A stretch of 64,000 bases of DNA. Source: Antedon mediterranea. Its lineage: Eukaryota > Echinodermata > Crinoidea > Comatulida > Antedonidae. Positions 35,324 through 64,000 of this stretch are shown piece after piece. Location: assembly GCF_964355755.1 (NCBI RefSeq), contig NC_092673.1, forward strand, positions 9,803,001 through 9,867,000. Direction: 5' to 3'. Below the pieces are notes generated by a model. That model was given only the letters and a program-made list of their open reading frames with translations. It searched no databases and was not told the DNA's origin. A program made the translations under genes and the position numbers. Position 1 is the stretch's first letter, and each line of letters begins with the position of its first letter.

Positions 35324-35372
35324 AATACTGGAATGTTCGGTAATATAGGCTAGCAAACACCGCTTGTCACCA

Positions 35373-41905: not shown

Positions 41906-42229
41906 TGTTAAAGTGTGCTCTCATTATACAATAAATGTTACCAATAGCCTACTGGTCATTCACCTATAGATAAGTGAAAGTTCCTGTTCTAAGAAATAGA
42001 TGATATACCGGAACTGTCCTCAGATCACAAAGCAATCCATCATTGCTTTGCTCACTCCTTAAGATGATAACATTCTTCTATGTGAATCACTCTTCCATAT
42101 TTATTCCTACTGTGTAGATGTGTACTTTGTATAGTTTATTACAATAAAGTTATTATAGTTCTAGATAGAACATTTGTATCTGCGTAAAATACTGTTATCG
42201 ATATGGCTCACAATCCTACAACCTTAACA
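41906..42229 (+). repeat. Copia 3' LTR
   Basis: Near-identical to the 5' LTR, with few differences (for example GCGTAAAATAC against GCGTCAAATAC, and TCTTCCATATTT against TCACATATTT). It also contains the ATG and first Gag codons. Confidence 0.92.
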
Positions 42230-42330
42230 ATTATAGACACAATATATATATGTTACCAAATTAATACCATTAATACAATTAATTACTAAAATAAAAACGG
42301 ACTAAGCGTTATTTCAGGAGGGTTTCTTTT

Positions 42331-42655
42331 CTGCGAGTTGCGAGTTGCGAGTTGGAAAATGCGAGTTACGAGTTGGAAAATGCGAGTTGCGGGTCGGAAA
42401 ATGCGAGTTGCGGGTCGGAAAATGCGAGTTGCGGGTCGGAAAATGCGAGTTGCAAGTTGGAAAATGCGAGTTGCGGGTCGGAAAATGCGAGTTGCGGGTC
42501 GGAAAATGCGAGTTGTGGGTCGGAAAATGCGAGTTGCGAGTCGGAAAATGCGAGTTGCGGGTTGGAAAATGCAAGTTGCGGGTCGGAAAATGCGAGTTGC
42601 GGGTCGGAAAATGCGAGTTGCGGGTCGGAAAATGCGAGTTGCTGGTCGGAAATTG
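42331..42655. repeat. 21-bp minisatellite, about 15 units
   Basis: Units of GGAAAATGCGAGTTGCGGGTC with scattered changes. As 21 is a multiple of three and the unit lacks stops in most frames, it is open in several frames on both strands. I treat the resulting open frames as by-products, not genes. Confidence 0.92.
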
Positions 42656-42660
42656 CAAAA

Positions 42661-44817
42661 ATAATTTTTCAAGGAGGTCGTACCATCCAAAAAAATAAAT
42701 ACATGAACCAAACAATCAGTAAATAAATTACAATTTAAATTTTGTTTAGTTTTTTTCATATTATGACCTGTTTAACAATTATAGACTAGTGATTCCTTTT
42801 TTAACATGGATGTTTAAAAATGGTTGAAATGAACTTATTTTGTATTTCAACACAAAACAATTATGTTATTGATACTTCATATTTTGAAATAATATAATTG
42901 TAAATATAGTAGATTAAAGTTATTATTTAATTTGTTTGCAATTACTGATAATGATACAATTACTAATAATGATACAATAAATTATGTACATGTATTTTTG
43001 CCTTGTTAAATGAGAAAATAATAATAAATTGGTAAGAAAAACTCACATTAAAAAGTACAGTTAGTATTGTTTACAGCAGGGAGGTGTTTACAGTATTTAG
43101 GTAAGCTGATTAATGATGATTAAAAACAGACATAATGGTTGGAGTCATCAGTACTACCTTGTGTACAGCAGATCCCATAAATAGGGCAAGGAAACACATA
43201 CCATACCTACAGATAATGGTCAAATTTTCAAAGCTATATTATTTTCTTAGAAATCATAGTCAATTCTTTATGTTTATAATATTTTTTTGTTAAACATTTT
43301 CAGACAAACTGTCCATAGATACATATAAATACATATGAATACAAAAAAAAGAGAAGAAATACACAGTTTATTATGTGTAACACCCATCAGAAAATCATGG
43401 AGAAGACCAATTAATGTATCTATTGAAATATAGTGCATCTCTCCAATTAAAATACATTCTGGAATCTAACCATATATTCATAATCTAACATTTTGTTTGC
43501 TTTTCATAATTTTGGAAAGAAGACTGTAAATTGTCAACCTAAAAAATTCATAAGAAGATGGAATATTGTTTTCTACAAATAATTTTCTCTGACTTAGATA
43601 TCGGAGTTGACAACAACAACATGCGGAATAAACACAAATACATGCTTTAGTATGTACACGTACAGTGCAGTAGGCATCTGTCAAATGTACTATGTGTATT
43701 TAAAGTAACTTTAGCAGGGTACAGATGTAAATACTGAAATCACTGGTTTGTTTTTAGAGAAAATATAACTTATAACTAAGATAATTCAAATTTACTTGAA
43801 TTGAATTGTTGAATTTAGGTGACAATAATCATTGATCTGCGCCCACAATTACATAGGAGAAGGAATTATTATTACTTATATACAGTATTGTTTGATGAAA
43901 TGTGTGATACAGTAGGTGAAATGAAGTTGTATTTTAGTTGTTGTTCAACGCGATGATCAAATATACAACACACTAAGAATGTAAAATTAAACTGTACATT
44001 TTGTTTTGCAAGTGAAAAGATGCAGTAGAGTCGCATATAAAAAACACTTGATCCTCAAATAAATGAATACACAGAATACATTAGAAAGTACTGGAATCAA
44101 CACAGTGTTGCTTGCTTATGAATTGGTTAAACTGACTGATTAAATGAGGAGATTGCACCCTTATTTATATCTTATTGATATATGGGGGTGCCAATTATGA
44201 CTTCATCGCATAACTTAGAGATGAGAATAGTTAGTTTTTAGATGAAACTTAAATGACATCATCATCTTTAAGAAGAAATTATAGATGACATCATACCAAC
44301 TTTAAGTCACAATCCCTTATTTGGTATAGTACACAACAAGTGTCCATGACAGGTAAATTTATGGGCCCTTTGGGAGTACCTAGTACAAAAGTCTGCATAG
44401 TGTAGTGCTGACTTATACAAGTAATAATATGTTAACAATTATATGAAAATGATTGTGTAAATAATAAAGTTAAAAGTAAAGTCTAAAAGTAAAAATGCAT
44501 TAAAAATCATGTGGTGGGCTAAACTGTCAGGCTTCTTATATTTATTAGTAGGTAGCAGACACAAATCTACAATGTGGACCTTTATCAAAGCAGTCATTAA
44601 TTGTTTTAGTAAAAGATACCTGCCCCAGGGTGGGAGTTAATTGCTTCATGGAGACCTTGATGAAGAATTCATTATCTTTTAAACCTACCACCAACCCCAC
44701 CTCAGCTCCTCCTCCCAACCAAGATCCACATACCATACATCCCTGAGATTATTTGATACAACATTACCTCTAAATGCCAGTATTTCCTTATACATGAACA
44801 TTCAAACAAACAAAAAT
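42661..44817. other. 2.1-kb non-coding stretch
   Basis: AT-rich; no exon, transposon protein or clear inverted repeat seen. Confidence 0.4.
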
Positions 44818-44819
44818 AA

Positions 44820-45290
44820 GCAAGTTAAAAAAAATCTGCGAGTTAAAAAAAAATCTGCGAGTTAAAACAAATCTGCGAGTTAAAAAAAAATCTGCGAGTT
44901 AAAAAAAAAATCTGCGAGTTAAAAAAAATCTGCGAGTTAAAAAAAAATCTGCGAGTTAAAAAAAAATCTGCGAGTTAAAAAAAATTTGCGAGTTAAAAAA
45001 AAATCTGGGAGTTAAAAAAAAATCTGCGAGTTAAAAAAAAATCTGCGAGTTAAAAAATTTGCAAGTTAAAAAAAAATCTGCGAGTTAAAAAAAAATCTGC
45101 GAGTTAAAAAAAAATCTGCGAGTTAAAAAAAATTTGCGAGTTAAAAAAAAATCTGCGAGTTAAAAAAAAATCTGCGAATTGAAAAAAAATCTGCGAGTTA
45201 AAATAAAATCTGCCAGTTAAAGACAAATCTGCCAGTTAAAGACAAATCTGCCAGTTACAAAACAAATCTGCCAGTTACAAAACAAATGCT
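44820..45290. repeat. ~19-bp A-rich minisatellite, about 25 units
   Basis: Units of AAAAAAAATCTGCGAGTTA, varying in the number of A. They drift at the right end into CTGCCAGTTAAAGACAAAT and CTGCCAGTTACAAAACAAAT forms. Shares the TGCGAGTT core with the array at 42331. Confidence 0.9.
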
Positions 45291-45492
45291 TGATTTAAAA
45301 ACATAAATGTTATATATTTATCAGTTATAATTGGATAACCCTTCTCTTTTAACATTTTAGTGAGCCACTTGAGTGTTCATTTCGATTTTAATCTTTTGGA
45401 TTTTGAACTCTTTACTTTGTTTTGTTTTTGTCTGATGAATGAAATAAATGAAAAAATATACATATTTGAAAATTCTCACTCTGTTTATATAT

Positions 45493-45526
45493 GTGTGTGT
45501 GTGTGTGTGTGTGGGGGGGGGGGGGT
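45493..45526. repeat. (GT)n microsatellite followed by poly-G
   Basis: ATGTGTGTGTGTGTGTGTGT followed by about a dozen G. Confidence 0.9.
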
Positions 45527-46420
45527 ATTAAGGTGGCACATAAGGAGATACTGGCATGTTTGCATTAGTAGTTATTATTTGTTTTTTGTACTAAAAACAA
45601 GTTAAATTAAATCAATGGCAATCACATAGATAAAAGAAGATAAAAGTTAGAACGCAATCAAGTTTAAACTATGTTATGTCCGACAGCTTCAGGCCCGTAG
45701 CCAGGGTGGATTTTTTATGGTTCGGGTGAAAGTATTTATTCTCTCGTTACTATCATCATTATATCATTACCATTAAAATTATAATTTTACATTGTTTCAT
45801 TATCCACATAAGTGTACATTGATTCATTGTATTGATTGAAAACATATTTTCACAAATCATATTAAAGAAGAAACTTGATGTAAAAAAATATTGAGTAATA
45901 CAGTAGCCTGGATTTATTTATATATGTTGTGAAGCTTTTAACGCTGTGTAGGCTACATAAGCCTGCAAACTCTCCTCCTACCCATCCTAGTAAAAAGTAA
46001 AAAAAAATCACTTGTGCCGCTTCCTTTAATATAGTAAGGGCAACAAGGGCCTTGTATATAATTACTAGCCCAGATACTAGCCAGGGCGGGAGTACGTTGT
46101 TGCATTGATGAAAGTTTAGAGAATCGACTGTCAATAGAAATAATGATATATATTTCAATCTTTTGTGGTGGTTTCCCATCTATTTTTATAAAATGTAAAT
46201 ATCAATCAATGCAGAAAGAAGTAAAAATAGAATGTAACATTCTCGGCTGTATATTAAATAATACAGATGTTTATAACATCTGCTTTAACTGTGTAATGTG
46301 TCATATTGGATACGGTAATGATTGAAATTGTTTGGCTCGCCTTCATAGGGTCAACTATATTGTGTTTTGAGAATATACCCTTCCCAGCATGTCAATCAAG
46401 CGAGCTGCCTAAATCTTCTT
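45527..46420. other. Non-coding stretch
   Basis: No exon seen. AGGCCCGTAGCCAGGGTGG at 45692 resembles the end of an invertebrate DNA transposon, but no partner end was found. Confidence 0.35.
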
Positions 46421-46424
46421 TAGG

Positions 46425-46690
46425 TTTTTATTTTCGTATATTTGAGTCTCCCTTTTCCTATATTTTCCTACTTTTTGTATATTTGGGTCTCCCTTTTCGT
46501 ATATTTAGGTCTCCCTTTTCGTATATTTAGGTCTCCCTTTTCGTATATTTGGGGTCTCCCTTTTCGTATATTTGGGGTCTCCCTTTTCGTATAGTGGGGT
46601 CTCCCTTTTCGTATAGCGGGGTCTCCCTTTTCGTATTGGGTCTCGGGTCTCTGGTCTCTGGTCTCGGGTCTCTAGTTTCGAAACACCCGT
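46425..46690. repeat. ~24-bp tandem array GGTCTCCCTTTTCGTATATTT
   Basis: About eight units of GGTCTCCCTTTTCGTATATTT, then short GGGTCTC/TGGTCTC repeats. It ends in TAGTTTCGAAACACCC, which resembles the complement of the terminus of the foldback element at 35949 (GGGTGTCACGAAACC), so it may be a related transposon end. Confidence 0.8.
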
Positions 46691-47034
46691 CAAAACACCT
46701 ACCGTATTTAAAAAATACATGGCCAACCTAAAATCAAAAGTGTATGGTTTTTGTTCATTAATGAAAACTAATTGATCACAGAGGCTTGTACTAGTAGGCC
46801 TACTAATAACATGGGTGGCATAGCTTATCAGAATAGTGTCTACATATCGTCTATTGCCTTATCTAATCATTAAAACCTCAGACTCAACCATAAATTAAAT
46901 CTGATCCATCCTCATTGTCTTTATTTTGTATTACTTTTAGAACGAAATGATTGGACAATTAGTTCAATTTTGGGGGGTTAAGTAAAAAAGTTGACACAGA
47001 AAGTATTTAGTTCATGAGATGATCACAAGTCATA

Positions 47035-48058
47035 ATGGCTTTCAAAATTCCTACATTATCTGTATCTAAGAAGAAAGTGTATGATATTTCAGGGATTCAA
47101 AAATTTGATTGGAGCGAAATCTCATTTCCAAATGAGATTGGGCGCGGGGCATTTGGTATTGTACATCGAGCTACATACAAAAACAAACTAGTTGTGGTAA
47201 AACAAATTATTACCGAGGATGAAGAATACAAAAAATGATGGCCAAGGAATGCAAACTAATGAGTGCTCTTCAACACAGGAACATAGCAGATTTTAAAGGA
47301 GTTTGTGAACAACCTTACTCTATTATGGTGGAGTACTTATGCTTTAGCTTTAATCCATTTGGATTTGCAAAACAAGTTAATGATCTCTCTCAGTGGTTAA
47401 CTGCTATTGACCAATTAGAGGATGTATCAGATATGAATGATTTCTCGTCAATAATTGTTGCGGACATTGCCAATGGACTAGACTATCTGCATCATCTTAA
47501 CATTATACACAGAGATCTAAAACCACAAAATGTGCTAATCTCCAACAGGCATTATTCTGAAATTAACTGTGAAACTTCAGAATTTTACAGGGAATTTCAA
47601 AAGTGTCCCATTCATTGTAAATTGACTGACTTTGGGGAAAGTAGATCTGACTTCGTTCAGACTAAATCACTTGTAAACAATGCAACAGAAAATGTCCATC
47701 GTGGATCTATGCCATATATGGCTCCTGAAATCCTAACACATGAATCACAGTTTAAAGCAAGTATAAATGATCTGAAGAAAATCGATATCTGGGCATTGGG
47801 AATGACGATTTATAATATCTGCAATCCTGGGGTAAAATATCCATATGAGCTTGACACACAGGAAAAAAGTCAATTTCGGTTTCAGAAGTTTTTGATAAAT
47901 CAATTAAAGAATGGCAAGCGTCCATCACATTCTACAAAATACAGTGATGTTCAAAAAACAAAATGGAAGAAGATAATGAATATATATTTTCGGTGCACCA
48001 TAGTAAATCCACTAGCCCGTCCAAAAGCTTCATGGATAGTCCGAGAATTAAAAAAATG
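47035..48058 (+). CDS. Exon 1: TKL-like protein kinase domain
   Basis: Starts at ATG 47035. The glycine loop GRGAFGIV is at residues 36-43 and the ATP-binding Lys in VVVKQI at 56. After a one-base frame break in AAAAAA (47229-47234) the kinase continues with ECKLMSALQHRNI, catalytic loop HRDLKPQNVL, DFG in KLTDFGES, GSMPYMAPEIL and the DIWALGMTIYN and LARPKASWIV late subdomains. All catalytic residues are present. The GxMPYMAPE activation segment and the N-lobe resemble the TKL group (RIPK/IRAK/MLK-like). The donor GTAAGT at 48059 splits a TGT codon completed in exon 2. Confidence 0.88.
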
Positions 48059-51000
48059 GTAAGTACAGTTTATTTTGTGACTATAAAATCAATAATTCTT
48101 TGTAATTTAATATAGTGCATTATTGTCTTTGTAATTTTATATTATTAAAGCTCAGGCAGGCATGATTTTTATTTATTATTATGTCGGAATAAATGTACAT
48201 AAAGAAAAAAATTATGGTCAAATAATTAAGAATTTGCCAGACAAACTTTTTCAGTAGTTATGTAGGTATGCTTTAATCTGATTTACTCAACTCTAGAAAG
48301 TTATAAAAGTGCAAACAAATTATATATGAGGATATATAGTGGATAAGTTTTGATATAGCACAAATATAAAAATCTGAAGTTAAATATAAACACCAAAAAT
48401 AACAAATTCAAGTTAATAGTCATCTGATACATTTTTTTACCAACCCGCTTTGTAAGTTAAGAATAAAATGAAAAGTGAATTTTATGTTCAGTGTTGAAAC
48501 CTATCTAAATTGTCATTCTATTACAGTGGTGGTGCTAGTACTAGTAGTAACATTGATGACTGCATTGACATTTCTGAAGATGAAGCCAAGTCTAGTAAAA
48601 GTGTACCTCATGAAAACAAGAGTCTTAATGAACATGACATTGACTGCAGGTAAGAACAGATAATTCTGGGTTATTACATCACAAATTGCGTAGTACAAGA
48701 CCAAAACAATTTATATTATAGAACGTTACAAGCTATAAATTATCTGCTGCTAACTTTAAGATAAAACAATTGATATTACTCAATTTAAAGTAAACTTTGC
48801 CTAAAATTTTAAATCCATTCTTTATTTTATTAATTAGTGACATTGATGACTGCATTGAAATTTCTGAGGCTGAAGCCAAGTCTAGTAAAGGTGTATCTCA
48901 TAATGAACATGACATTGACTGCAGGTAAGAACACTAAACAAAAATTAATCCATTATAACATTAAACAGTAATTCTATTATATTGTATTCTCTATCCCTAG
49001 ACAATTACCTAATTTACAATAACTGACCCGAACAGAAAATAACTGTTAATGATCTGTATAGAGAGCAATTTTTATTTTTCATTTCATTGGTCGATTGCAT
49101 TATTCTATTCTTAATGATAATAATAATAATAAAGTTATCGGAAAATGGAAAACTTGATTACTTAACAAGTTCGTTTCAGTATGCAAGACTATTTACAAAA
49201 AAAACAAACAATTAAAAAAAAGTAAAAGAATGTGACTAAACCAATTCTTTATTTTATTAGTAACATTGATGACTGCATTGACATTTCTGAGGATGAAGCC
49301 AAGTCTAGTAAAAGTGTACCTCATGAAAACAAGAGTCTTAATGAACATGAAATTGACTGCAGGTAAGAACAGATAACACTGTGTTATTACATCACAAGAA
49401 CAAACCCTTAAAGACCACTTTATATTAAATTGATTACATCATGATTTAGTAAAAAAAAATGTCCAGTATATTATAGGGAACTTTAAGATTTCTCATATGT
49501 CTGTATTCAGTTTACGTCTGCCTTATATTCCTACTTTTTTTCAATGCTAGTAAACTCTATAGAGGATTAGTGTTATCTGAAAGATCTTTAATTTAACATG
49601 ATGTATTGCAAATAGTAACAAAAGAGGTATGGCAAGGGAGAAGGTGAATGCTGCCATTAAGGATAAAACAATTGATATTCAATTAAAGGTATTTTTCGAA
49701 AATTAGCCTTAAATGTTTATTCTGTTCTTTATTTTATTAGTAACATTGATGACTGCATTGACATTTCTGAGGATGAAGCCAAGTCTAGTAAAAGTGTACC
49801 TCATGAAAACAAGAGTCTTAATGAACATGACATTGACTGCAGGTAAGAACATTACTATGAAATATGATCTTTATTTGATGATTTCAATAAAATTCTTTGC
49901 TAATGTAACAATCGCTAAATAAATATGTTAAACTGACACCCAATTATATAATTTAATTTATTTTATTCTTTCAGTACTGCTCGACAGGCTTTTCAGTACA
50001 GAAGACCTACTAGTGAATTGACCATGGTATGCTAATAATTTGTTTCTAGTTTTAAAAATACAGTAATTAACAAAATTTTTAAAGCTGTATTGTCCCCAGA
50101 AAACATGAAATATGAAGATAAAATAGACTTTGTAGTTTTAATTAATAAAGTTAATCACTTCCATAGGGAAAAAAAGTCAATCTGACCATTGTTTTGCCTT
50201 AAATAACAGTTGTTCAGATAAAAAATAATGTTTGGTCAAAGTGAATAACTATAACTATATTCAACAAAACAACTTAATTTAACGTTTTTTTGTAAACTTT
50301 GCCTGAAATGTTTATTCTTTTATTTATTTTATTAGTTTCTAATTTTGTTATGATACAGGGAAATCAGGATTTTGTTATAATGGGAGATTTTCATCAGGCT
50401 TCCGAGGAACAATTCTTCCATGATGCTGCAGGTTCTCAGTGCTGCTCCATAAGTATAATGGCGATAGTATTCAGCAAAATGAAAGCATCAGTTAATTGGA
50501 CTAAAGATATCATTCATGATATAATGATGCAAGGTGACGCTGTCCATGTGTCAGCTTTAAGAAGGTTGGGATGGCCAGATAAACGAAGAGAAAAAACACT
50601 TGATGTTGATGAGCTACCAGAAATTTGGAGCTATACAGTAGATGGAAAACATATGAAAGCCAGTGTTGGTACGCTTGAAGGTGGCAAGTTTGGCTATAGT
50701 TTACACAATTTGCTAACCGAGTCACTTGTCATCAATTCATGCTCTTATCTGCTAAGAATTGCAGATAAATGCACTGCCATCATAAAAGATTCCAGTGAAG
50801 GATGGAGTCTATTTGACAGTCACGCCTGTAACTACAAAGGGCAACGAGACCCTGATGGTGCAGCAAGTATGACAAGGTTTGGGACAGCAACAAGGTTAAT
50901 TGAACATTTAGCAACATCATATCCTGATGATGGACGACAAATTGATATTTTTCCAGTTTATGTGCAGATATTAGGTGAAGATGAAGGTAAGCAATCTGAG

Positions 51001-53551
51001 TTTCTAAAATCATTATATAGACTGAGTAATAAAATAAAAATAATGATAGTAATTTATAATTATTAAAACGCTTAATTGCACACTGTTAAATTTGCAAGTT
51101 AAAAAGGAATTAAATCTTCCAACCCTCTATTATTAGCATCTATTTTAAAACAATTTTATAACATGACTATGCATATAATTTGGATTTAATTTAAGTTATT
51201 ACATATTTTGAGGTGAAATTTCCATTTAAATAATAATCATGATAACAAACTTTCTTGTGTTAGTATCGCATGAGTTGCAAACATTTCAGTTTTGATGACA
51301 TCATCAAGTCCAAACATGGATTACTTAACTATACACTATTATATAACACATAAATAAATTCATATAAATTTACAGTATTGGACAATTGTGGGTCACATGA
51401 TTTTAATAATTTCCATACAAAATAATGTACCATAATTGATTAATGTGACATTAACAATCAATTTTATTTATTTTAGATAATGAATCTGATTTGAACGATA
51501 CAGATGACAGTTCTGACTTCTCGATGAGATATAAAAATAATAAATATGACAAAGAGCACTGGAAAGAATGTATGCCAAAACAAGTCAACACACTGCCCTT
51601 TGATATCAATGGCTTAGAAGTTTATCATCTTTCCTGCAGTAAACAAAGTGAAATGATGAAAGTTTCAAAGGACGGAAGGCCATGGAACCGTTACTGCAAG
51701 ACTTCACGAAAACACTTTAAGGGGGTACGACGTATTTCACACTGTAAAGGATCGCCAATATGTAACAACCCGGAGTGCACATATCTGAAAATGTATGGGT
51801 GTCAAAACAGAAGCCAATTCGGTAAAGAGACGGGCATATTAGTGTGCTACACATGTGGGAAGGCAGCAGATCATGTAAAATGTTATGCCACGAAGGTATG
51901 GGAATACAGTAACGACATGGTGGTTGTTATGCATACTGGCTTCCACACATGTGTAGCAAAAAAACCAAATGTTTCTGTGGCCGTCATTGAAAAGGATATA
52001 AAACAGCATCCTGGTCTCAAGCCAAGTGCCATCGTTTCGGCCAAAATAAACGCAATCATGACCTCCAACAGCTTCAAGTGGAAAGATGTGGATGAGTTAG
52101 CTGAAAGATATAGTGAAATGAAAAGAGTCCACAATGCAAAGGAAAGGTTGAAGCAGGTGATGTTGCCACTTGGTGACAATTTTGAAGCTCTCGCGGATTT
52201 TAAACAGAAATGCGAGGAAAAGGATAAGTACCTAATATATCAGATAAATAACAGGACCTTTAACAACAAACATAGTTATGTTTTCAAGTCCAGCAAACAA
52301 ATGGCAGAACTGGCTCTATCAATGGACAGAGACCAAGATGGCATATTGTCAGGTGAATATGCCTATGTTGACGGCAAACATAACCACTGTAGAGGTTATG
52401 TTACGATCACATTATGGGTTTACCATCCAGTAATGAGACGAGTTGTTCGCCTTGCAGTGTGTGACACAGAGAAAGAGGACACCACTAACCTTGAAACATT
52501 TTGGAATGTTTTCAACGAGATGCTCTCTAACGCTGCTGGACGAACAGTAATTTTCAATCCCTGTGGTTTTGTTGCAGATGAAAATCATGCCAACTGGAAA
52601 AGTATCAAGAATGTGTTCGGCGATGATGGAGTTCGTAGAACTGTATCCTGCGAATTTCATTACAAGCAAAGTGTACAACGCCATTCAAAAAAAAATTCCG
52701 CAAGATGATGCTGCACAATTCATTGAGATTGCAAATTCTATGCTCACTGCATATTCCCTTACTGAACTTAATGAAGCATGCAAAGAAATGACCAAGTTCA
52801 CTGAGAAGCATCAAGTTCTTCAGAACTGGTATTCCTGGTGGTATGCTCGAAGAAGTCATATTTTTTGGGCTTACAAACCAAGTGATGCACCAGTTTCAAA
52901 CTTGGCTGAGGTAGGGCATGCTAAAATGAGTGTGTCAAAGCAAAAAATGTCCCTTTTAGAAGCAGCTAGGCAAGACGTAATCGATGCCATTAGACAACAA
53001 CCTGAGATTAACGGCTTCAAAGAAGGTCAACATAAGGGGAGGGGGGGGGGGGCAGAGGAGAAAGAGCAAATAAGAAAAAAGCATTGAAATACCGCAATGA
53101 AAAGAAGAGAGCTGCTCAATATGCAGAAGAGGTGGAGCATCTCTTCATTCCAGATCAAGGGTCTCATCGTCCGCCAGAACCAAAAAGGAGAAAATTAGCA
53201 AAAAGGGCACCAGTGAACAATGACGAGCATCCAGTATGTGTTTGTTTTTCAACGATGGTAATTAACCTTAAAACATGCTATGGGTGCAAAGAAAGATTTT
53301 CAGATCGCTATAGAAAAGAGCCAAATTATGTCATCTTAAAAGTCAACCTGAAAAGGAAATATACAAAAGATGGCAAAGAACATGTAGCATCGAAGGTATC
53401 TGCAGCCTACTTTCACCTAAACATGAACTGCGTAAGGAAGGTTAAACCGTACGCAGAAATCAACGAGATAGTCATTCACAATGAGGTAAAAGCACTCTTA
53501 AGAGCAGGACACAAACAGGTTTTAAAAATATTTGGAATGAAAGCAATATAG
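47035..53551 (+). CDS. Kinase-protease-transposase fusion gene, 8 exons
   Basis: Exons 47035-48058, 48527-48649, 48838-48924, 49261-49362, 49741-49842, 49975-50026, 50359-50986 and 51477-53551 have AG/GT borders and compatible phases throughout. Three homopolymer frame breaks remain: an A-run at ~47229, an A-run at ~52687 and a G-run at ~53041. If the last two take the lengths seen in the sister copies and the first gains one A, the coding length becomes 4191 nt, an exact multiple of three. Domains in order: TKL-like kinase, four SIM-like exon modules, tegument-USP-like cysteine protease, cysteine-rich region, MULE-like DDE transposase and zinc-binding tail. It could be a transposon that captured host exons, or a host gene fused to a transposase. 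I know of no described gene with this order. Confidence 0.7.
48527..48649 (+). CDS. Exon 2: first SIM-like acidic module
   Basis: Acceptor TTCTATTACAG, donor GTAAGA at 48650. After a Gly/Ser linker it encodes SNIDDCIDISEDEAKSSKS and NKSLNEHDIDC. IDIS followed by EDE fits the pattern of SUMO-interaction motifs (two branched residues around Asp, then Ser and acids). Phase 1 in, 2 out. Confidence 0.7.
48838..48924 (+). CDS. Exon 3: second SIM-like module (diverged, shortened)
   Basis: 87 bp, symmetric phase. Encodes DIDDCIEISEAEAKSSKG and NEHDIDC; five codons are missing against the 102-bp modules and two acidic or core positions differ. Confidence 0.7.
49261..49362 (+). CDS. Exon 4: third SIM-like module
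   Basis: 102 bp, symmetric phase, acceptor TTTATTTTATTAG, donor GTAAGA. Nearly identical to exon 5, with a GAA for GAC change late in the module (HEIDC). Confidence 0.72.
49741..49842 (+). CDS. Exon 5: fourth SIM-like module
   Basis: 102 bp; one or two bases differ from exon 4. The upstream intron end (TTCTTTATTTTATTAG) is also shared, so exon and flanking intron were duplicated together. Confidence 0.72.
49975..50026 (+). CDS. Exon 6: short linker
   Basis: 17 codons (TARQAFQYRRPTSELTM) between TTCTTTCAG and GTATGC. It restores phase 0 for the protease exon. Short, so less certain than its neighbours. Confidence 0.55.
50359..50986 (+). CDS. Exon 7: papain-fold protease resembling tegument-type USP
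   Basis: About 209 codons in phase 0. GDFHQASEEQFF followed by AGSQCCSISIMAI gives a G-x-Q-C nucleophile context (Cys at 50440-50442). WSLFDSHACN gives a D-x-H context (His at 50821-50823) about 127 residues later. The spacing and the FHQ...QC and FDSH signatures resemble the herpesvirus large-tegument ubiquitin-specific protease family (peptidase C76) and related domains found in metazoan transposon proteins. An OTU or Ulp1-like peptidase is the alternative. Activity is inferred only. Donor GTAAGC at 50987. Confidence 0.6.
51477..53551 (+). CDS. Exon 8: MULE-like DDE transposase with zinc-binding tail
   Basis: Acceptor TTATTTTAG; GAT formed across the junction. A cysteine/histidine-rich part (CKGSPICNNPEC, CYTCGKAADHVKC, HTGFHTC) is followed by the catalytic core. 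First Asp in YVDGKHNH (52370), second in GFVADENHANW (52577), CEFHYKQS after it, and a candidate Glu in SNLAEVGHAKM (52908), as in Mutator-like transposases. A basic region (KRRKLAKRAP) and CYGC...YFHLNMNC close the protein at TAG 53549. Frame breaks lie in an A-run (9 A where sister copies have 8) and a G-run at 53041. Confidence 0.78.
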
Positions 53552-54657
53552 ATTTGGAGGCTGCTATTTTTTAAATAATATTAAAATACAGTGTGATCAC
53601 TACCCATGAATACTTATAACTTGACATTTTATTATAAATACATCATGTAAACTTTTGGATCTCTGTGTTTTTTGGGGGTTGGCTGGGGAATGTGTTTATG
53701 TTGAACAAAGCTACAATATTTTAAAATATATCTGTTCTGTTAAGGGTATGTTCAGACTCACAGTGTACGGTTTGTTATCTGACGCAAGACGTCAAGGTGT
53801 TCAGACACAACGATCAACATTCCAATGCTTGCATTTAAAACACTCTGATAATCAGATCTAAGCAGATTGAACTATGTATACATTCATGATGAAAAATGCA
53901 TTACAGTTTACATTGTAAAGTTGTTTTTTGATATTTTTATTTATACAGTATAATGTTACCTTCAAAATACTGATTTGTTCTTACTACTTGCAGAATTGCA
54001 TTCTAATTCAAAATAATTTCAAACACAATTAGCACACGGCCAATTATCTGATTATTACAGTATTGTATTTAATTTATGAAAATATATCGCTGACGTGAAC
54101 TGTACTTTAAAATTTAAAACCTGATAGTTTGACGGTCAGCGATCTCGATGTATGCCTGCTATTAACCGTGGTCGTGTCTTCTTATTGGTTAAGGTTAAAA
54201 TCACTGATGCCTCACTGGATTAGCATTATTAAATCTACCCTCTTCTTCAAGGGTTACTAACGCAACTGGTGCGGCGTAACAGCTCCCTAACGCTAATCCG
54301 TGGCCTAGTTCACACACAAAAATATGTACGCCGCTTACATAATGCCACCTTAACTGAACATATCCTAAAGCAAACATATTCCTTATTATCTTTAGTTACA
54401 GAATTATAACAAACAAGTTCTATCTTGTAATAAACAGTGCTTTGAAACACGAGGTTTAATTAATAACCATAAACTTAAATATTGTTTTTAATTCTGTACA
54501 TTTTTATTTTTAAGAAAGGTTTTAGAATTCAATATTGTCTAGAAAACAATTCTTTTTAAAGGGATTTACAGTACAATCTATATATAAATTTACGTAAGGG
54601 CAAAATTCGGTAAATCGCGCGTTATTTCTAGAATGTTTACTCGATGGTATATAAAGT
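53552..54657 (+). other. 3' flank of the fusion gene within the tandem unit
   Basis: Non-coding on inspection. It includes TATCGCTGACGTGA / ACGGTCAGCGATCT near-inverted words at 54085-54155 and ends with a TATATAAAG box 10 bases before the next unit. No plain AATAAA was seen close to the stop; ATTATAAATA at 53630 is the nearest weak variant. Confidence 0.45.
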
Positions 54658-55063
54658 TGGTTTTGTTGCAGATGAAAATCATGCCAACTGGAAAAGTATC
54701 AAGAATGTGTTCAGCGATGATGGAGTTCGTAGAACTGTATCCTGCGAATTTCATTACAAGCAAAGTGTACAACGCCATTCAAAAAAAATTCCGCAAGATG
54801 ATGCTGCACAATTCATTGAGATTGCAAATTCTATGCTCACTGCATATTCCCTTACTGAACTTAATGAAGCATGCAAAGAAATGACCAAGTTCACTGAGAA
54901 GCATCAAGTTCTTCAGAACTGGTATTCCTGGTGGTATGCTCGAAGAAGTCATATTTTTTGGGCTTACAAACCAAGTGATGCACCAGTTTCAAACTTGGCT
55001 GAGGTAGGGCATGCTAAAATGAGTGTGTCAAAGTGTAATAAATTACCATTCCCTAACATATAG
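54644..55063 (+). pseudogene. Transposase segment, unit 2, 5' part before insertion
   Basis: Carries the second Asp motif (VADENHANW), CEFHYKQS and the Glu motif (LAEVGHAKM) in one open frame with 8 A in the homopolymer, so it lacks the frameshift of unit 1. It then runs into the LTR at 55034. It lacks the first catalytic Asp. Confidence 0.85.
54647..54655 (+). promoter_or_regulatory. TATA-box-like sequence at unit junction 1
   Basis: GGTATATAAAG immediately precedes the duplicated coding segment. The same sequence precedes unit 3 (59896-59904). Promoter function is untested. Confidence 0.3.
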
Positions 55064-55534
55064 AGTAACATAGTATTTACATGAACATTCTAGAATAAGA
55101 TGTTTTGATTTAAGAAACCATGTATAATTAATAAGAACAATCAAGAACATTCCAGAAGTGCTATTAATAGAAACTGTAATCATGTAATAATGAGAAGTAT
55201 AAGGAATGATCTAGAAGGTTATGAACATATTGTATATAAGGGGAAGTATGACAATTGTAAGAGGGAGAAGGATTTTTGATTGAAGCATTTATTTTGAAGA
55301 AGGTTGTTGGATTAGAGGTTGGATTAGAGGTTGGATGTTATATTGTAAAGTCATTGTGAAGCTGTTGTTTAAAGTGCTTACTGGATTGTTAAAAGTTGAA
55401 GTTGATTGAAATTAAAGCTTTGTTTTGAGTTATTTTACAACTTTGTGGATTTTGTGTGTATACTTTTATGTCACAAGGGAGTTCCTAAAGTATTTTCAAC
55501 CGCTCGGAAACATACGTGAGAGGAGTTCGTGACA
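55034..55534 (+). repeat. Gypsy 5' LTR, 501 bp
   Basis: TGTAATAAATTACC ... GAGTTCGTGACA. Matches 57686-58186 with one difference seen. Confidence 0.94.
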
Positions 55535-55863
55535 TAATTTGGTGGCAGCGGTTATTTCGATCTACTGTTCGACTTAACTGTGTATTTATCTACGGTTGTG
55601 ATATTTTGTGTAGCAGTTTGATCTACTGTATTTTGCCATAGATTGGTGGCTGTTTTAGGATCAACTGTACTTTATTGATTTTGTGAAAGCGGTACTTACG
55701 ATACTGTGATATTTTACGGAAGCCGCGGTGCTACGTTTTGTTTAATCGTAAGTACACAAACATTGTTTTAAGAACACTACATTGTTTATTTGGAACAGTA
55801 GACTTGTGAACGTCTCGGTAACTACGATTAACTAGTAACAAGACCCTCATCCAGATTTAAAAT

Positions 55864-57612
55864 ATGGCTGATAAACAATCAACAACAAGATCCGGTAGAG
55901 AATACAGCGGCGGCGATGAAACTGATTCGGATGTAGAATCAGTTCAATCAGTACAACCTGAACAACAGGCAGAAGAGTCTGGACCAACCAGTGGACATAA
56001 CCCTACAGGGGCTGACTCATTTTCAAAAGATTTGTTGTTGTTGATGCAGCAGCAAATGCAACAGCAAATGCAACAGCAAATGCAACAGCAAATGCAGCAA
56101 CAAATGCAACAGCAGAATCTTATGATGCAGCAGATGATGGACAGACAAGAACGTTTACGTAGGGAAGATATGGAGAAACAGCAAGCATTAGTAATGGCGT
56201 TAATGGATAAGCAAAAGGACAGTGAGGAGAAACGATTAAAGGACATAATGAGATTGAAGGAAGTTCAGATTGCAAAACTTTCTGATAGTGAGGATATTGA
56301 AAATTATCTTACTACGTTTGAACGAATTGCTAACACCTATGAGTGGCGAAAAGAACACTGGGTAGTAAAACTAATACCTCATTTGACAGGCAAAGCAAGA
56401 GCAGCCTATGCATCACTACCAGTGACAGAAAGTAACCAGTACGATATAGTGAAGAAAGCAATATTACAAAGGTATGACATAACTGAAGAGACATATAGAC
56501 AAAGGTCAATTAAAAAGAAAAGTGAAGAAAGTTATAGAGAAATGTATGTTAGGTTGAAAGACTTATTTACTAAGTGGGCTAGGCCTGCTGATAAAAGCAA
56601 AGAGGATTTAGCTGAAATTGTTATTTTAGAGCAATTAATAGATATTATGCCCACAGGGGTACAAATTTGGGTTAAAGAACATAAACCAGATTCTGGATTA
56701 AATGCTGCAGAATTAGCAGATAATTATTTTCAAGCTAGAAAAGGTATCGATTTTGAGAAAAAGTTTCAAAATAGAAAACACGAAAATCGAAACAACCAGG
56801 AGAAAACAGTGAAAGGCACTCCTGAAGTTGACACTAGAGATCATGCTAGAAAAGAAAAACTAAGAGAGGAAAACGAATTAAAGTCGGAAAAAGCTTCTGG
56901 GGTTATTTCACATCAGTTAGATGATGTGGTTAATTTTCAAGAAGAATTTGGACATTTAGATGGCCAACTACTCAGTAACAACCCTCCCAAGGAAAAAGTT
57001 CATAAAACCAGAAGTGAGAAACGAAAAGTTAGGAAAGAGTTTGCAAAAACAAAGGAAGCTCAATCTAGCCAAGATAGTGAATTAGACATTTTAGATATTG
57101 GCAGAGATAAAATTAAGGATTATCAGGTTAAGGATAGAACTTTAATTTCACTTCGAGAACAGATGTTAGTACAGAAGGATGATGACACTATAAAGATAGT
57201 CTGTAAGGATGGAATTTTATTTAGGCAGGTTTTCACTAAACACCAGACAGAACCAATAGAGCAATTAGTAGTTCCATACCCTTGCCGTAATAGTGTATTG
57301 AAAGTCTCACATGATATTCCTTTGGCAGGTCATTTAGGTAGGAAAAAGACATTAGATAGGATAAAGCAGAGATTCTTTTGGCCTGGTATTAGAAAGGATG
57401 TGACCGAATATTGTAACACTTGTGAAAATTGTCAGAAAACTTCAAAGTATAAAACTAAATTGAAGGCCCCGATGATTCCTATGTCAGTAATTGTTAGTGA
57501 ACCATTCCGACAAATTTACATGAATATTGTTGGTTCATTATTAGTAATTATTAATAATTATGTTGTATGTTATTATGGCGTATTTAAGTTTTATAGACTA
57601 GGAGTGGGTTAA
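55864..57612 (+). CDS. SCAN-like Gag fused to integrase zinc-finger domain
   Basis: 582 codons without interruption from ATG 55864. The N-terminus has an acidic/Ser region, then an MQQQ repeat (residues ~60-85) in a Gln/Met-rich coiled-coil-like stretch. Next comes a capsid-like part with WRKEHWVVKLIPHLTGKARA and ILQRYDITEETYRQR, close to the SCAN domain of the Gmr1-type gypsy lineage. After a charged linker the protein joins the integrase HHCC zinc finger (HDIPLAGHLGRKKTLDRIKQ, CNTCENCQKT) and stops shortly after. The Gag zinc knuckle, protease, reverse transcriptase, RNase H and integrase catalytic core are missing. Confidence 0.88.
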   Translation: MADKQSTTRSGREYSGGDETDSDVESVQSVQPEQQAEESGPTSGHNPTGADSFSKDLLLLMQQQMQQQMQQQMQQQMQQQMQQQNLMMQQMMDRQERLRREDMEKQQALVMALMDKQKDSEEKRLKDIMRLKEVQIAKLSDSEDIENYLTTFERIANTYEWRKEHWVVKLIPHLTGKARAAYASLPVTESNQYDIVKKAILQRYDITEETYRQRSIKKKSEESYREMYVRLKDLFTKWARPADKSKEDLAEIVILEQLIDIMPTGVQIWVKEHKPDSGLNAAELADNYFQARKGIDFEKKFQNRKHENRNNQEKTVKGTPEVDTRDHARKEKLREENELKSEKASGVISHQLDDVVNFQEEFGHLDGQLLSNNPPKEKVHKTRSEKRKVRKEFAKTKEAQSSQDSELDILDIGRDKIKDYQVKDRTLISLREQMLVQKDDDTIKIVCKDGILFRQVFTKHQTEPIEQLVVPYPCRNSVLKVSHDIPLAGHLGRKKTLDRIKQRFFWPGIRKDVTEYCNTCENCQKTSKYKTKLKAPMIPMSVIVSEPFRQIYMNIVGSLLVIINNYVVCYYGVFKFYRLGVG

Positions 57613-57685
57613 GTTTTGACACGTCCGTGTATACTAGCCCCTCAAAACTCCAAGAAAGAGTCTTGAGCTCAGAAAGAGGGGGGAG

Positions 57686-58186
57686 TGTAATAAATTACCA
57701 TTCCCTAACATATAGAGTAACATAGTATTTACATGAACATTCTAGAATAAGATGTTTTGATTTAAGAAACCATGTATAATTAATAAGAACAATCAAGAAT
57801 ATTCCAGAAGTGCTATTAATAGAAACTGTAATCATGTAATAATGAGAAGTATAAGGAATGATCTAGAAGGTTATGAACATATTGTATATAAGGGGAAGTA
57901 TGACAATTGTAAGAGGGAGAAGGATTTTTGATTGAAGCATTTATTTTGAAGAAGGTTGTTGGATTAGAGGTTGGATTAGAGGTTGGATGTTATATTGTAA
58001 AGTCATTGTGAAGCTGTTGTTTAAAGTGCTTACTGGATTGTTAAAAGTTGAAGTTGATTGAAATTAAAGCTTTGTTTTGAGTTATTTTACAACTTTGTGG
58101 ATTTTGTGTGTATACTTTTATGTCACAAGGGAGTTCCTAAAGTATTTTCAACCGCTCGGAAACATACGTGAGAGGAGTTCGTGACA
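57686..58186 (+). repeat. Gypsy 3' LTR, 501 bp
   Basis: TGTAATAAATTACC ... GTTCGTGACA, directly followed by CAAAG and the resumed transposase sequence. Confidence 0.94.
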
Positions 58187-58800
58187 CAAAGCAAAAAATG
58201 TCCCTTTTAGAAGCAGCTAGGCAAGACGTAATCGATGCCATTAGACAACAACCTGAGATTAACGGCTTCAAAGAAGGTCAACATAAGGGGGGGGGGGGGG
58301 GCAGAGGAGAAAGAGCAAATAAGAAAAAAGCGTTGAAATACCGCAATGAAAAGAAGAGAGCTGCTCAATATGCAGAAGAGGTGGAGCATCTCTTCATTCC
58401 AGATCAAGGGTCTCATCGTCCGCCAGAACCAAAAAGGAGAAAATTAGCAAAAAGGGCACCAGTGAACAATGACGAGCATCCAGTATGTGTTTGTTTTTCA
58501 ACGATGGTAATTAACCTTAAAACATGCTATGGGTGCAAAGAAAGATTTTCAGATCGCTATAGAAAAGAGCCAAATTATGTCATCTTAAAAGTCAACCTGA
58601 AAAGGAAATATACAAAAGATGGCAAAGAACATGTAGCATCGAAGGTATCTGCAGCCTACTTTCACCTAAACATGAACTGCGTAAGGAAGGTTAAACCGTA
58701 CGCAGAAATCAACGAGATAGTCATTCACAATGAGGTAAAAGCACTCTTAAGAGCAGGACACAAACAGGTTTTAAAAATATTTGGAATGAAAGCAATATAG
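58187..58800 (+). pseudogene. Transposase C-terminal segment, unit 2, after insertion
   Basis: Resumes at KQKMSLLEAARQDVIDA and runs in a single frame through a 15-base G-run, KRRKLAKRAP and the CYGC...YFHLNMNC zinc-binding tail to TAG. This copy has the G-run length that keeps the frame open, unlike units 1 and 3. The frame continues 19 bases back into the LTR. Confidence 0.88.
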
Positions 58801-59892
58801 ATTTGGAGGCTGCTATTTTTTAAATAATATTAAAATACAGTGTGATCACTACCCATGAATACTTATAACTTGACATTTTATTATAAATACATCATGTAAA
58901 CTTTTGGATCTCTGTGTTTTTTGGGGGTTGGCTGGGGAATGTGTTTATGTTGAACAAAGCTACAATATTTTAAAATATATCTGTTCTGTTAAGGGTATGT
59001 TCAGACTCACAGTGTACGGTTTGTTATCTGACGCAAGACGTCAAGGTGTTCAGACACAACGATCAACATTCCAATGCTTGCATTTAAAACACTCTGATAA
59101 TCAGATCTAAGCAGATTGAACTATGTATACATTCATGATGAAAAATGCATTACAGTTTACATTGTAAAGTTGTTTTTTGATATTTTTATTTATACAGTAT
59201 AATGTTACCTTCAAAATACTGATTTGTTCTTACTACTTGCAGAATTGCATTCTAATTCAAAATAATTTCAAACACAATTAGCACACGGCCAATTATCTGA
59301 TTATTACAGTATTGTATTTAATTTATGAAAATATATCGCTGACGTGAACTGTACTTTAAAATTTAAAACCTGATAGTTTGACGGTCAGCGATCTCGATGT
59401 ATGCCTGCTATTAACCGTGGTCGTGTCTTCTTATTGGTTAAGGTTAAAATCACTGATGCCTCACTGGATTAGCATTATTAAATCTACCCTCTTCTTCAAG
59501 GGTTACTAACGCAACTGGTGCGGCGTAACAGCTCCCTAACGCTAATCCGTGGCCTAGTTCACACACAAAAATATGTACGCCGCTTACATAATGCCACCTT
59601 AACTGAACATATCCTAAAGCAAACATATTCCTTATTATCTTTAGTTACAGAATTATAACAAACAAGTTCTATCTTGTAATAAACAGTGCTTTGAAACACG
59701 AGGTTTAATTAATAACCATAAACTTAAATATTGTTTTTAATTCTGTACATTTTTATTTTTAAGAAAGGTTTTAGAATTCAATATTGTCTAGAAAACAATT
59801 CTTTTTAAAGGGATTTACAGTACAATCTATATATAAATTTACGTAAGGGCAAAATTCGGTAAATCGCGCGTTATTTCTAGAATGTTTACTCG

Positions 59893-60893
59893 ATGGTATA
59901 TAAAGTTGGTTTTGTTGCAGATGAAAATCATGCCAACTGGAAAAGTATCAAGAATGTGTTCGGCGATGATGGAGTTCGTAGAACTGTATCCTGCGAATTT
60001 CATTACAAGCAAAGTGTACAACGCCATTCAAAAAAAATTCCGCAAGATGATGCTGCACAATTCATTGAGATTGCAAATTCTATGCTCACTGCATATTCCC
60101 TTACTGAACTTAATGAAGCATGCAAAGAAATGACCAAGTTCACTGAGAAGCATCAAGTTCTTCAGAACTGGTATTCCTGGTGGTATGCTCGAAGAAGTCA
60201 TATTTTTTGGGCTTACAAACCAAGTGATGCACCAGTTTCAAACTTGGCTGAGGTAGGGCATGCTAAAATGAGTGTGTCAAAGCAAAAAATGTCCCTTTTA
60301 GAAGCAGCTAGGCAAGACGTAATCGATGCCATTAGACAACAACCTGAGATTAACGGCTTCAAAGAAGGTCAACATAAGGGGGGGGGGGGGGGGGCAGAGG
60401 AGAAAGAGCAAATAAGAAAAAAGCGTTGAAATACCGCAATGAAAAGAAGAGAGCTGCTCAATATGCAGAAGAGGTGGAGCATCTCTTCATTCCAGATCAA
60501 GGGTCTCATCGTCCGCCAGAACCAAAAAGGAGAAAATTAGCAAAAAGGGCACCAGTGAACAATGACGAGCATCCAGTATGTGTTTGTTTTTCAACGATGG
60601 TAATTAACCTTAAAACATGCTATGGGTGCAAAGAAAGATTTTCAGATCGCTATAGAAAAGAGCCAAATTATGTCATCTTAAAAGTCAACCTGAAAAGGAA
60701 ATATACAAAAGATGGCAAAGAACATGTAGCATCGAAGGTATCTGCAGCCTACTTTCACCTAAACATGAACTGCGTAAGGAAGGTTAAACCGTACGCAGAA
60801 ATCAACGAGATAGTCATTCACAATGAGGTAAAAGCACTCTTAAGAGCAGGACACAAACAGGTTTTAAAAATATTTGGAATGAAAGCAATATAG
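59893..60893 (+). pseudogene. Transposase C-terminal segment, unit 3
   Basis: Two frames (59893-60429 and 60426-60893) are joined across a 17-base G-run that breaks the reading frame. The A-run has 8 bases. Second Asp, CEFHYKQS, Glu and the zinc-binding tail are all present; the first Asp and everything upstream are absent. Confidence 0.87.
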
Positions 60894-62004
60894 ATTTGGA
60901 GGCTGCTATTTTTTAAATAATATTAAAATACAGTGTGATCACTACCCATGAATACTTATAACTTGACATTTTATTATAAATACATCATGTAAACTTTTGG
61001 ATCTCTGTGTTTTTTGGGGGTTGGCTGGGGAATGTGTTTATGTTGAACAAAGCTACAATATTTTAAAATATATCTGTTCTGTTAAGGGTATGTTCAGACT
61101 CACAGTTTACGGTTTGTTATCTGACGCAAGACGTCAAGGTGTTCAGACACAACGATCAACATTCCAATGCTTGCATTTAAAACACTCTGATAATCAGATC
61201 TAAGCAGATTGAACTATGTATACATTCATGATGAAAAATGCATTACAGTTTACATTGTAAAGTTGTTTTTTGATATTTTTATTTATACAGTATAATGTTA
61301 CCTTCAAAATACTGATTTGTTCTTACTACTTGCAGAATTGCATTCTAATTCAAAATAATTTCAAACACAATTAGCACACGGCCAATTATCTGATTATTAC
61401 AGTATTGTATTTAATTTATGAAAATATATCGCTGACGTGAACTGTACTTTAAAATTTAAAACCTGATAGTTTGACGGTCAGCGATCTCGATGTATGCCTG
61501 CTATTAACCGTGGTCGTGTCTTCTTATTGGTTAAGGTTAAAATCACTGATGCCTCACTGGATTAGCATTATTAAATCTACCCTCTTCTTCAAGGGTTACT
61601 AACGCAACTGGTGCGGCGTAACAGCTCCCTAACGCTAATCCGTGGCCTAGTTCACACACAAAAATATGTACGCCGCTTACATAATGCCACCTTAACTGAA
61701 CATATCCTAAAGCAAACATATTCCTTATTATCTTTAGTTACAGAATTATAACAAACAAGTTCTATCTTGTAATAAACAGTGCTTTGAAACACGAGGTTTA
61801 ATTAATAACCATAAACTTAAATATTGTTTTTAATTCTGTACATTTTTATTTTTAAGAAAGGTTTTAGAATTCAATATTGTCTAGAAAACAATTCTTTTTT
61901 AAGGGATTTACAGTACAATCTATATATAAATTTACGTAAGGGCAAAATTCGGTAAATCGCGCGTTATTTCTAGAATGTTTACTCGATGGTATATAAAGTT
62001 GGTT
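59907..62004 (+). repeat. Tandem unit 3 (2093 bp)
   Basis: A third copy of 52564-54657. After the final TGGTT the sequence diverges (CGTACTTTCGG) into unique DNA, marking the right border of the array. Confidence 0.95.
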
Positions 62005-63540: not shown

Positions 63541-63549
63541 GGTCTAAAT

Positions 63550-64000
63550 GTTTATAATAATAATAATAACAACTTTATTTTAAAACGGATGCAACACTTG
63601 GATCACCAGATTGGTGTTTTTCACAAGGCCGTTACTTATTACAAAACTATTTACACAAGTTATCATTTACAGTACATAATGATTTCATGAAAAACAGGGT
63701 TTCAAGTATATCTTACCTTCATTTATTATTTTTTTAAATATATGTATATTAGGAGCTGTAATTGCATTTGAGTTTATAGCATTTAAACTATTCCATAGCT
63801 TTGCGCCAGAATACGAGAAACTTTTCTTTTTGTACTCAGTGTTTGCCTTATGTAAACTTTCTATTGATCTAGTATTATATGTTTGTTTGCGTTCATAGAA
63901 TCTGTTTCTTAAGTAGGATGGTGTTTATTTATTTATTATGTTTAAGAGCTATAATGATTTTTTTACCATTTTCAGGTACATTATGTATGTTTTTATGAAA
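63550..64000 (-). mobile_element. LINE 3' end, runs off the window
   Basis: The minus-strand frame ending at TGA 63687-63685 encodes the usual C-terminal block of jockey/CR1-like ORF2 proteins (YNTRSIES..., KKKSFSYSGAKLWNSLNAI, FKKIINEGK). A 3' untranslated stretch follows and ends in (TTA)n at 63558-63572. Sequence beyond about 63920 is degenerate, so the copy is 5'-truncated or decayed. Confidence 0.75.

Follow-up and report, generated by a model that had tools for sequence, protein, structure and literature searches.

A probable Mutator-superfamily transposon of Antedon mediterranea with a protein kinase and a predicted deubiquitinase in its transposase gene

We examined an eight-exon gene of the crinoid Antedon mediterranea in which a protein kinase is followed by a transposase, and asked whether the parts form one protein and whether that protein belongs to a transposon or to the host. 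The window is the whole 64,000-nucleotide stretch of DNA that was analysed. The sequence-only reading had offered both a transposon protein and a host fusion gene; the data favour the transposon because two near-identical copies lie on different contigs, each bounded by clear termini with inverted ends and duplicated target sites. Judged by sequence comparison, the gene at 47035-53551 very likely belongs to a DNA transposon of the Mutator superfamily.

The proposed joining of eight exons holds with respect to GT-AG borders and compatible phases, but the frame of the window copy is broken three times: in the kinase at an A-run near 47232, and in exon 8 at two runs, of A near 52690 and of G near 53040. 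The second copy contains, at G000:C2:11465995-11472492, the same eight GT-AG exons with no break, forming one open frame of 1,393 residues in the order kinase, four SIM-like repeats, VTD domain and DDE/CxxH Mutator-type transposase. We infer that the kinase and transposase parts lie on one continuous mRNA. In the window copy the 3' portion of the gene, with the sequence downstream, is present three times in tandem (units 52564-54657, 54658 to 59906 and 59907-62004, 99.8% alike), and the middle unit holds a Gypsy-like insertion with LTRs that are 99.6% alike and the 5-bp duplication CAAAG; in the second copy the 3' part is single.

The interval first marked out covers the gene, but the element is larger and runs past the window end, from 42318 to 68640 (G000:C4:9845318-9871640, 26,323 bp). 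A second full copy, of 14,776 bp, is found on a different contig of this genome (G000:C2:11461322-11476097), and the genome holds at least two full copies, repeat counts being lower bounds. The exon stretches compared between them are 97.7-100% identical, exon 8 being compared up to 52676 only. Using BLAST against the second copy for the left terminus, and end sequences judged by eye for the right one, we found that homology between the two copies stops at the termini GAGGGTTTC.. / GAGTGTTAC.. (Table 1). The element ends are imperfect inverted repeats leading into inverted 21-bp minisatellite arrays, and the right-hand array of the window copy lies at about 68200-68620, just before the terminus. 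Mutator target-site duplications are about 9 bp long, and both copies read as insertions with 9-bp duplications, which agree at 9/9 bp in the second copy and 8/9 bp in the window copy. The true ends were recognised only once the second copy was at hand; a search for terminal repeats near the gene found none, the true ends lying 4.7 kb and 15 kb off. Stop-to-stop frames of at least 110 aa in the 14.8-kb copy comprise three exons of the kinase-transposase gene, frames in the minisatellite end regions and a single 118-aa frame on the strand opposite the transposase, and no further gene was recognised among frames of this size, a threshold that short-exon genes would escape.

Table 1. Features of the window copy (positions in the window).
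Feature	Positions	Strand	Basis or remark
Left target-site duplication	42309..42317	+	matches its right-hand partner, outside the window, at 8/9 bp
Mutator-type transposon, part in window	42318..64000	+	homology with second copy ends at both termini
Left terminus and 21-bp minisatellite array	42318..42656	+	comparison with second copy
Exon 1, protein kinase	47035..48058	+	Pfam Pkinase E=5e-27 for C-terminal part
Exon 2, SIM-like, CIDISEDE	48527..48649	+	
Exon 3, SIM-like repeat, CIEISEAE, fails strict SIM pattern	48838..48924	+	
Exon 4, SIM-like repeat	49261..49362	+	
Exon 5, SIM-like repeat	49741..49842	+	
Exon 6, linker	49975..50026	+	
Exon 7, predicted VTD-type deubiquitinase domain	50359..50986	+	PDB 8add_A, Pfam Herpes_teg_N
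Exon 8, DDE/CxxH transposase with zinc-type cysteine motifs	51477..53551	+	invariant residues in relatives
Tandem tripling of gene 3' part and downstream sequence	52564..62004	+	window copy
Gypsy-like LTR element inside middle tandem unit	55034..58186	+	LTRs and 5-bp duplication

The kinase had been described as carrying intact catalytic motifs, and exon 1 contains them: a Gly loop (47140), the beta-3 Lys in VVVK (47191), HRDLKPQN (47508), DFG (47628) and APE (47721). The kinase of the second copy is free of the A-run break seen in that of the window. Across the aligned relatives the HRD Asp is kept in 116/116, the beta-3 Lys in 77/79 and the DFG Asp in 117/118, in a collection made by likeness to kinase queries and thus biased toward conserved motifs; the kinases P0025-P0135 are 111 of 120 matches listed from a total of 813, cut by eye. 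By record name, family members among the matches listed come from sea cucumbers, mussels, krill and a hydrozoan. Records from Apostichopus, Holothuria and Mytilus trossulus bear host-kinase names and the others no name, all of these records having been gathered as kinase matches. When 28 kinase loci of the Antedon genome (20 taken by position and 8 from the kinase match list, with the kinase of the second copy, also on that list, outside the set) were compared by tblastn with the window VTD and transposase, there were 0 matches. For P0025, which joins kinase and protease, the predicted fold (pLDDT 82.7) had only kinases among the matches listed, best CTR1 and IRAK4; all named viral matches were also kinases, which is uninformative on the protease part.

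Exons 2 to 5 are tandem copies of a single exon plus its flanking intron. The SIM-like array that had been proposed therefore exists as four tandem exons, but the strict SIM pattern is matched by three of the four, as one pattern repeated, and a strict-type pattern occurs in 5 of 20 family linkers, where 25 of 500 shuffles reached at least 5. These counts hint faintly at SUMO interaction.

Exon 7 bears out the suggestion of a viral-type protease in that it resembles tegument-type proteases. Its sole PDB match under 0.01 is 8add_A, the VTD of a zebrafish Helitron (E=0.004, residues 14-186), and the alignment with 8ADD includes the catalytic Cys (codon 50440), two acids proposed to bind the ubiquitin tail (Asp-Glu, 50608/50611) and Asp-x-His (50815/50821). 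From this match and the aligned catalytic residues we predict a VTD-type deubiquitinase. Pfam Herpes_teg_N also matches exon 7 (E=0.001), with 19.2 bits, below the curated cut-off of 25, and the structure model is of low confidence (pLDDT 35). Exon 7 itself is the one weak Herpes_teg_N match in seven protease segments, and among eight other relatives there is one more (P0120, E=0.005). A different Cys/Asp-x-His protease is present in 4 of 7 kinase-bearing full-length relatives. A profile built from protease segments of 28 relatives picks up 35 of 144 proteins and gives E=3.5, no match, with exon 7, and the two were rejected as the same protease on sequence (also by hhalign); the profile matches 8ADD weakly (probability 15%, E=0.0018).

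A DDE triad with CxxH between the second D and the E characterises MULE transposases. Exon 8, described at the outset as MULE-like, carries the motifs VDGKH (52367), VADENH (52571), SCEFH (52646), NLAE (52899) and CYGC (53276), and D681, D751, C775, H778 and E860 (P0016 numbering) are invariant across 24 aligned relatives, as in a Mutator-type DDE transposase with CxxH. The Pfam MULE model PF10551 gave no match to the window piece and sub-threshold matches to P0010 (E=0.15) and P0008 (E=0.054). The sequence-only reading had set a single protein against kinase and transposase genes that are always separate in related genomes; the two are joined in 7 of the 21 database matches to the transposase (query P0001 included), a recurring architecture that includes P0010, whose 1,396 residues on a 4,946-bp contig leave little space for introns. 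Some Ginger transposons carry OTU domains, and one distant relative here has an OTU-like domain. No relatives were found in the viral and prokaryote contigs scanned. P0014 and P0026, both on a 27,135-bp contig (jgi), are probably one locus.

With high probability, the single recognised gene of this Mutator transposon encodes a modular transposase consisting of kinase, SIM-like linker, VTD and DDE with zinc-type motifs. The transposase part would bind the inverted ends and cut and paste the element. The VTD part could deubiquitinate the transposase or proteins associated with it, sparing the complex degradation or silencing; the kinase could phosphorylate either its own transposase or a host factor gating transposition, such as cell-cycle, repair or silencing proteins, and the SIM-like repeats may recruit the protein to SUMO-marked chromatin. 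Our hypothesis is that phosphorylation and ubiquitin removal are coupled to transposition. More tentatively, at somewhat less than even odds, the element represents an old animal Mutator lineage with a built-in kinase and a swappable deubiquitinase-like module, giving self-contained control of the element or of host silencing and supplying some supposed invertebrate host kinase genes.

Introns lie between the parts, as they would if kinase and transposase were separate neighbouring genes joined by accident, but in the second copy the eight exons form a single open frame, and other genomes have predicted proteins that unite kinase and transposase, one of them taking up most of its contig, which together make this extremely improbable. 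The conserved catalytic residues of the kinase, the host-kinase record names of some relatives and the finding of two full copies (a lower bound) would also suit a domesticated host gene, that is, a kinase-deubiquitinase-transposase fusion with a host function and a second copy made by segmental duplication. However, segmental duplication does not predict inverted termini with 9-bp duplications that bound the homology, the 14.8-kb copy shows no second recognised gene, and we consider this origin very doubtful.

Within the transposon reading, the kinase could still be a passenger, captured together with the protease exon and having no role in transposition. Sequence capture is on record for Mutator-like elements (Pack-MULEs), P0006 and P0016 are without a kinase and P0002 and P0011 without a recognisable protease, and the kinase occurs on scattered branches of the transposase tree, needing 6 changes, a number as low in 139 of 500 label shuffles. 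This unevenness may reflect either loss or incomplete records. Decay is the expected fate of a neutral passenger, whereas the catalytic residues are nearly invariant in a diverse kinase family, and all 8 kinase-bearing rows fall within a single transposase clade of 15 (support 96/99). We regard a passenger kinase as unlikely.

To our knowledge, no DNA transposon described so far has a protein kinase inside its transposase, and the literature matches listed, in a search with Repbase and most subscription journals outside it, included no kinase-transposase element. If the kinase acts in transposition, which a small, complete element makes testable, mobile DNA would handle its host by phosphorylation as well as by ubiquitin removal; it seems to bring along a means of its own for altering host protein control. 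If the kinase family is transposon-borne, annotation of invertebrate kinomes would need to separate such kinases.

Like the MULEs in the survey of 1,631 elements by Dupeyron et al. 2019 (PMC6446971), where one clade has an 8-bp target-site duplication, the Antedon element has a DDE transposase, zinc motifs, inverted ends and a duplication of similar size. Unlike them, it joins its transposase to a kinase and a predicted deubiquitinase and has inverted ends that are mostly minisatellite; the survey's main text has none of the terms kinase, OTU, protease and ubiquitin. Ginger elements (PMC2836005) are likewise DNA transposons, and an OTU domain is mentioned in connection with them, but their transposase is integrase-type, and "kinase domain" has 0 mentions among the matches listed. 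With Helitron and herpesvirus VTDs (Erven et al. 2022, PMC9741609) exon 7 shares the catalytic Cys, the invariable Asp-x-His, a pair of acids with a proposed role in gripping the ubiquitin tail, and a mobile-element carrier. Most non-viral carriers described there are rolling-circle Helitrons, whereas here the carrier is a cut-and-paste MULE, and the main text contains neither kinase nor MULE as a word. A predicted VTD deubiquitinase in a cut-and-paste transposon bears on the origin of herpesvirus VTDs. The PHD finger, a Rehavkus feature, had no Pfam match in the element pieces scanned. Rehavkus (PMC6446971), compared by description only, is also MULE-like and has a minisatellite adjoining its 3' terminal repeat, whereas the Antedon element has inverted minisatellite arrays at both ends.

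The kinase–VTD–transposase fusion (VTD, viral-tegument-like deubiquitinase domain) is encoded by a transposon with two insertions. The sequence-only reading had proposed one spliced gene of eight exons; all exons, the GT-AG introns and their fitting phases hold up, but the frame of the window copy is broken three times, every time at a homopolymer run, so a single protein cannot be proven from the window alone. Exon 1 encodes a protein kinase (Pfam Pkinase, E=5e-27, in the C-terminal part of the exon), exons 2-5 are one short exon with flanking intron in four copies, exon 6 is a linker, exon 7 encodes a tegument-protease-like domain and exon 8 the transposase. Using the in-frame transposase piece as query against the animal's own genome (354 Mb, 18 contigs), we obtained eight matches. 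Only the window and a copy on another contig, C2, match over the full length. Of the rest, two are tandem tail pieces within the window, two lie at one place on the window's contig, C4 (71-78%), and two are distant relatives (27-28%). The C2 sequence was read piecewise and then compared with the window, and its eight exons, unaltered, join into a single 1,393-residue frame running from MAFKIPTL to FGMKAI. Exon 4 of this copy has three candidate acceptors; the one matching the window yields the 1,393-residue frame and the other two lead to early stops, while omission of exon 4 gives 1,359 residues. Exon identity between the copies is 97.7-100% over the compared stretches (exon 8 only as far as 52676; the best exon 4 match fell on the exon 5 copy). 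Synonymous and other changes number 3 and 2 in the kinase (274 codons), 1 and 0 in the VTD (208 codons, excluding exon 7 codon 1, which is Gly in the window and Arg in C2) and 0 and 2 in the transposase (399 codons), too few to gauge selection.

Copy-to-copy homology is bounded by two termini, mutually similar in inverted orientation (left limit from BLAST, right limit by eye on printed ends), and both lead into inverted 21-bp minisatellite arrays. The C2 copy spans 14,776 bp and has a perfect 9-bp direct repeat on both flanks; the flanking repeat of the window copy agrees at 8/9 bp. Mutator target-site duplications are about the size of these repeats. Judged by its sequence, the element is a transposon whose target-site duplication is of Mutator size, because homology ends at inverted termini flanked by 9-bp direct repeats. 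The greater length of the window copy is due to two extra stretches. Within the first, as assembled, the 3' part of the gene is present in three tandem copies, and a Gypsy-like element flanked by a 5-bp duplication of its own is present too. In the C2 element, stop-to-stop frames reach 110 residues or more in three exons of the gene, in the minisatellite end regions and once antisense to the transposase (118 residues).

Coordinates of features in the window contig (window numbering) and of one locus on another contig
Feature	Position	Remarks
EGF, LNR-like and ankyrin ORFs	4595-16500	Notch-gene look, by eye
Reverse transcriptase with GIY-YIG-like end	28882-30099	Penelope-like by eye
Gypsy-like gag-pol	31377-35434	minus strand; by eye
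Copia-like ORFs	37633-42229	named by eye; flanked by two ~324-bp repeats, 98.8% alike
Transposon, window copy	42318-68640	26,323 bp
Minisatellite, 22-bp unit	46419-46640	upstream of gene; common to C2 copy
Eight-exon gene	47035-53551
Intron-end-like stretch	50276-50336	before exon 7; 84% like intron end preceding SIM-like exons
First extra stretch	~54577-63373
ORF of the short Gypsy-like element	55861-57612	SCAN-domain gag and H2C2 integrase zinc finger in one 583-residue ORF; full pol not seen
Second extra stretch	65161-67931
Locus L032, A. mediterranea	G000:C5:14707857-14711996	distant transposase relative, 28% identity; open frame 808 residues

Searched against protein databases, the spliced in-frame part returned eight proteins, and the transposase part of the database protein P0001 returned 21, P0001 counted. 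Precomputed Pfam annotation places a kinase in the same protein in seven of the 21 (P0001, P0002, P0003, P0009, P0010, P0011 and P0012); P0010 has 1,396 residues within a 4,946-bp contig. Four of the seven (P0001, P0002, P0010, P0012) begin, as the window protein does, with MAFK, a hydrophobic residue and P. The Mutator-type core D, D, C, H, E is invariant across 24 aligned relatives, and in a transposase tree of 25 rows all eight kinase bearers, window counted, fall within one clade of 15 (support 96/99). Inside this clade the kinase is scattered (6 changes needed vs a shuffle mean of 7.0; 6 or fewer in 139/500 shuffles). Several of the seven kinase-less rows (P0004, P0005, P0006, P0007, P0013, P0014, P0015) look N-terminally incomplete, and the kinase record P0026 shares contig size and source with P0014; a missing kinase may therefore be a loss or a cut record, which are indistinguishable here.

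The kinase catalytic motifs had been read as intact, and the glycine loop, beta-3 Lys, HRD, DFG and APE are all present. Searching with a relative's kinase gave 813 matches, and from the 120 listed we cut by eye a family of 111 (P0025-P0135). Aligned with the seven kinase bearers, a set whose gathering by similarity biases it toward intact motifs, the family retains the HRD Asp (116/116), its Lys (116/116), the DFG Asp (117/118), the beta-3 Lys (77/79), the alpha-C Glu (84/84) and the third loop Gly (66/76). A quick tree of 89 rows sets the family apart from two generic kinases, the only ones long enough, and puts the window kinase in another family branch than the seven other full proteins. 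The predicted fold of one member is nearest to the CTR1 and IRAK4 kinases. By record name, members come from Apostichopus, Holothuria, Mytilus, Meganyctiphanes and Clytia.

The exon 7 domain, previously called a viral-type, USP-like protease, resembles tegument proteases. The single PDB chain below E=0.01 is 8add_A (E=0.004, residues 14-186), the zebrafish Helitron VTD deubiquitinase of Erven et al. 2022 (PMC9741609). Its catalytic Cys322, Asp451 and His453 align with a Cys and an Asp-x-His in exon 7, and Asp376 and Glu377, the two acids that it has for the ubiquitin tail, with an Asp-Glu (PMC9741609; an offset of 297 served to match paper to chain numbering). The match to Pfam Herpes_teg_N, at E=0.001, is below the family cut-off. 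A protease with Cys and D-x-H follows the kinase in four of the seven kinase-bearing full-length relatives (P0001, P0003, P0009, P0010); P0012 has a version lacking these residues, and P0002 and P0011 have none. The profile of the relatives' protease matches 35/144 proteins. We rejected the idea that exon 7 is this same protease, as that profile gives exon 7 no match. P0024, a distant relative, has a weak OTU match (E=0.025). Judging by these weak matches, differing modules appear to occupy the position between kinase and transposase. In P0002, this position carries roughly eleven units of a different short repeat (NSISSALDELDRDPSD-like) in place of a protease.

The strict SIM pattern, used in its generally known form, occurs in three of the four repeat exons. 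It is found in 5/20 family linkers, with bounds set by eye, vs a shuffle mean of 2.1 (as high in 25/500 shuffles); the SIM reading is weakly supported. The intron-end-like stretch before exon 7 suggests that the array was once longer.

We file the element under the Mutator superfamily, as a variant of it. None of the full-text literature matches listed describes a kinase–transposase element. The words kinase, OTU, protease and ubiquitin are absent from the main text of a 2019 survey of 1,631 MULEs (PMC6446971), as are kinase and MULE from that of the VTD paper (PMC9741609). An eLife article mentions TRADD-N genes fused to Mutator-like elements, a capture of related kind (PMC8195603).

As for how the fusion might work, DDE/CxxH transposases cut and join DNA, and the kinase might modify the transposase or a host gatekeeper. 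According to PMC9741609, the Helitron VTDs tested cleave ubiquitin linked through K48 and K63; K11 linkages are cleaved by two of the three, and likewise two of the three show reactivity toward NEDD8. Its authors suggest for Helitrons that the VTD shields against degradation. By analogy, the VTD here could shield the transposase complex from degradation. Outside the transposon, the Copia-like stretch of the window stops 88 bp short of the left terminus.
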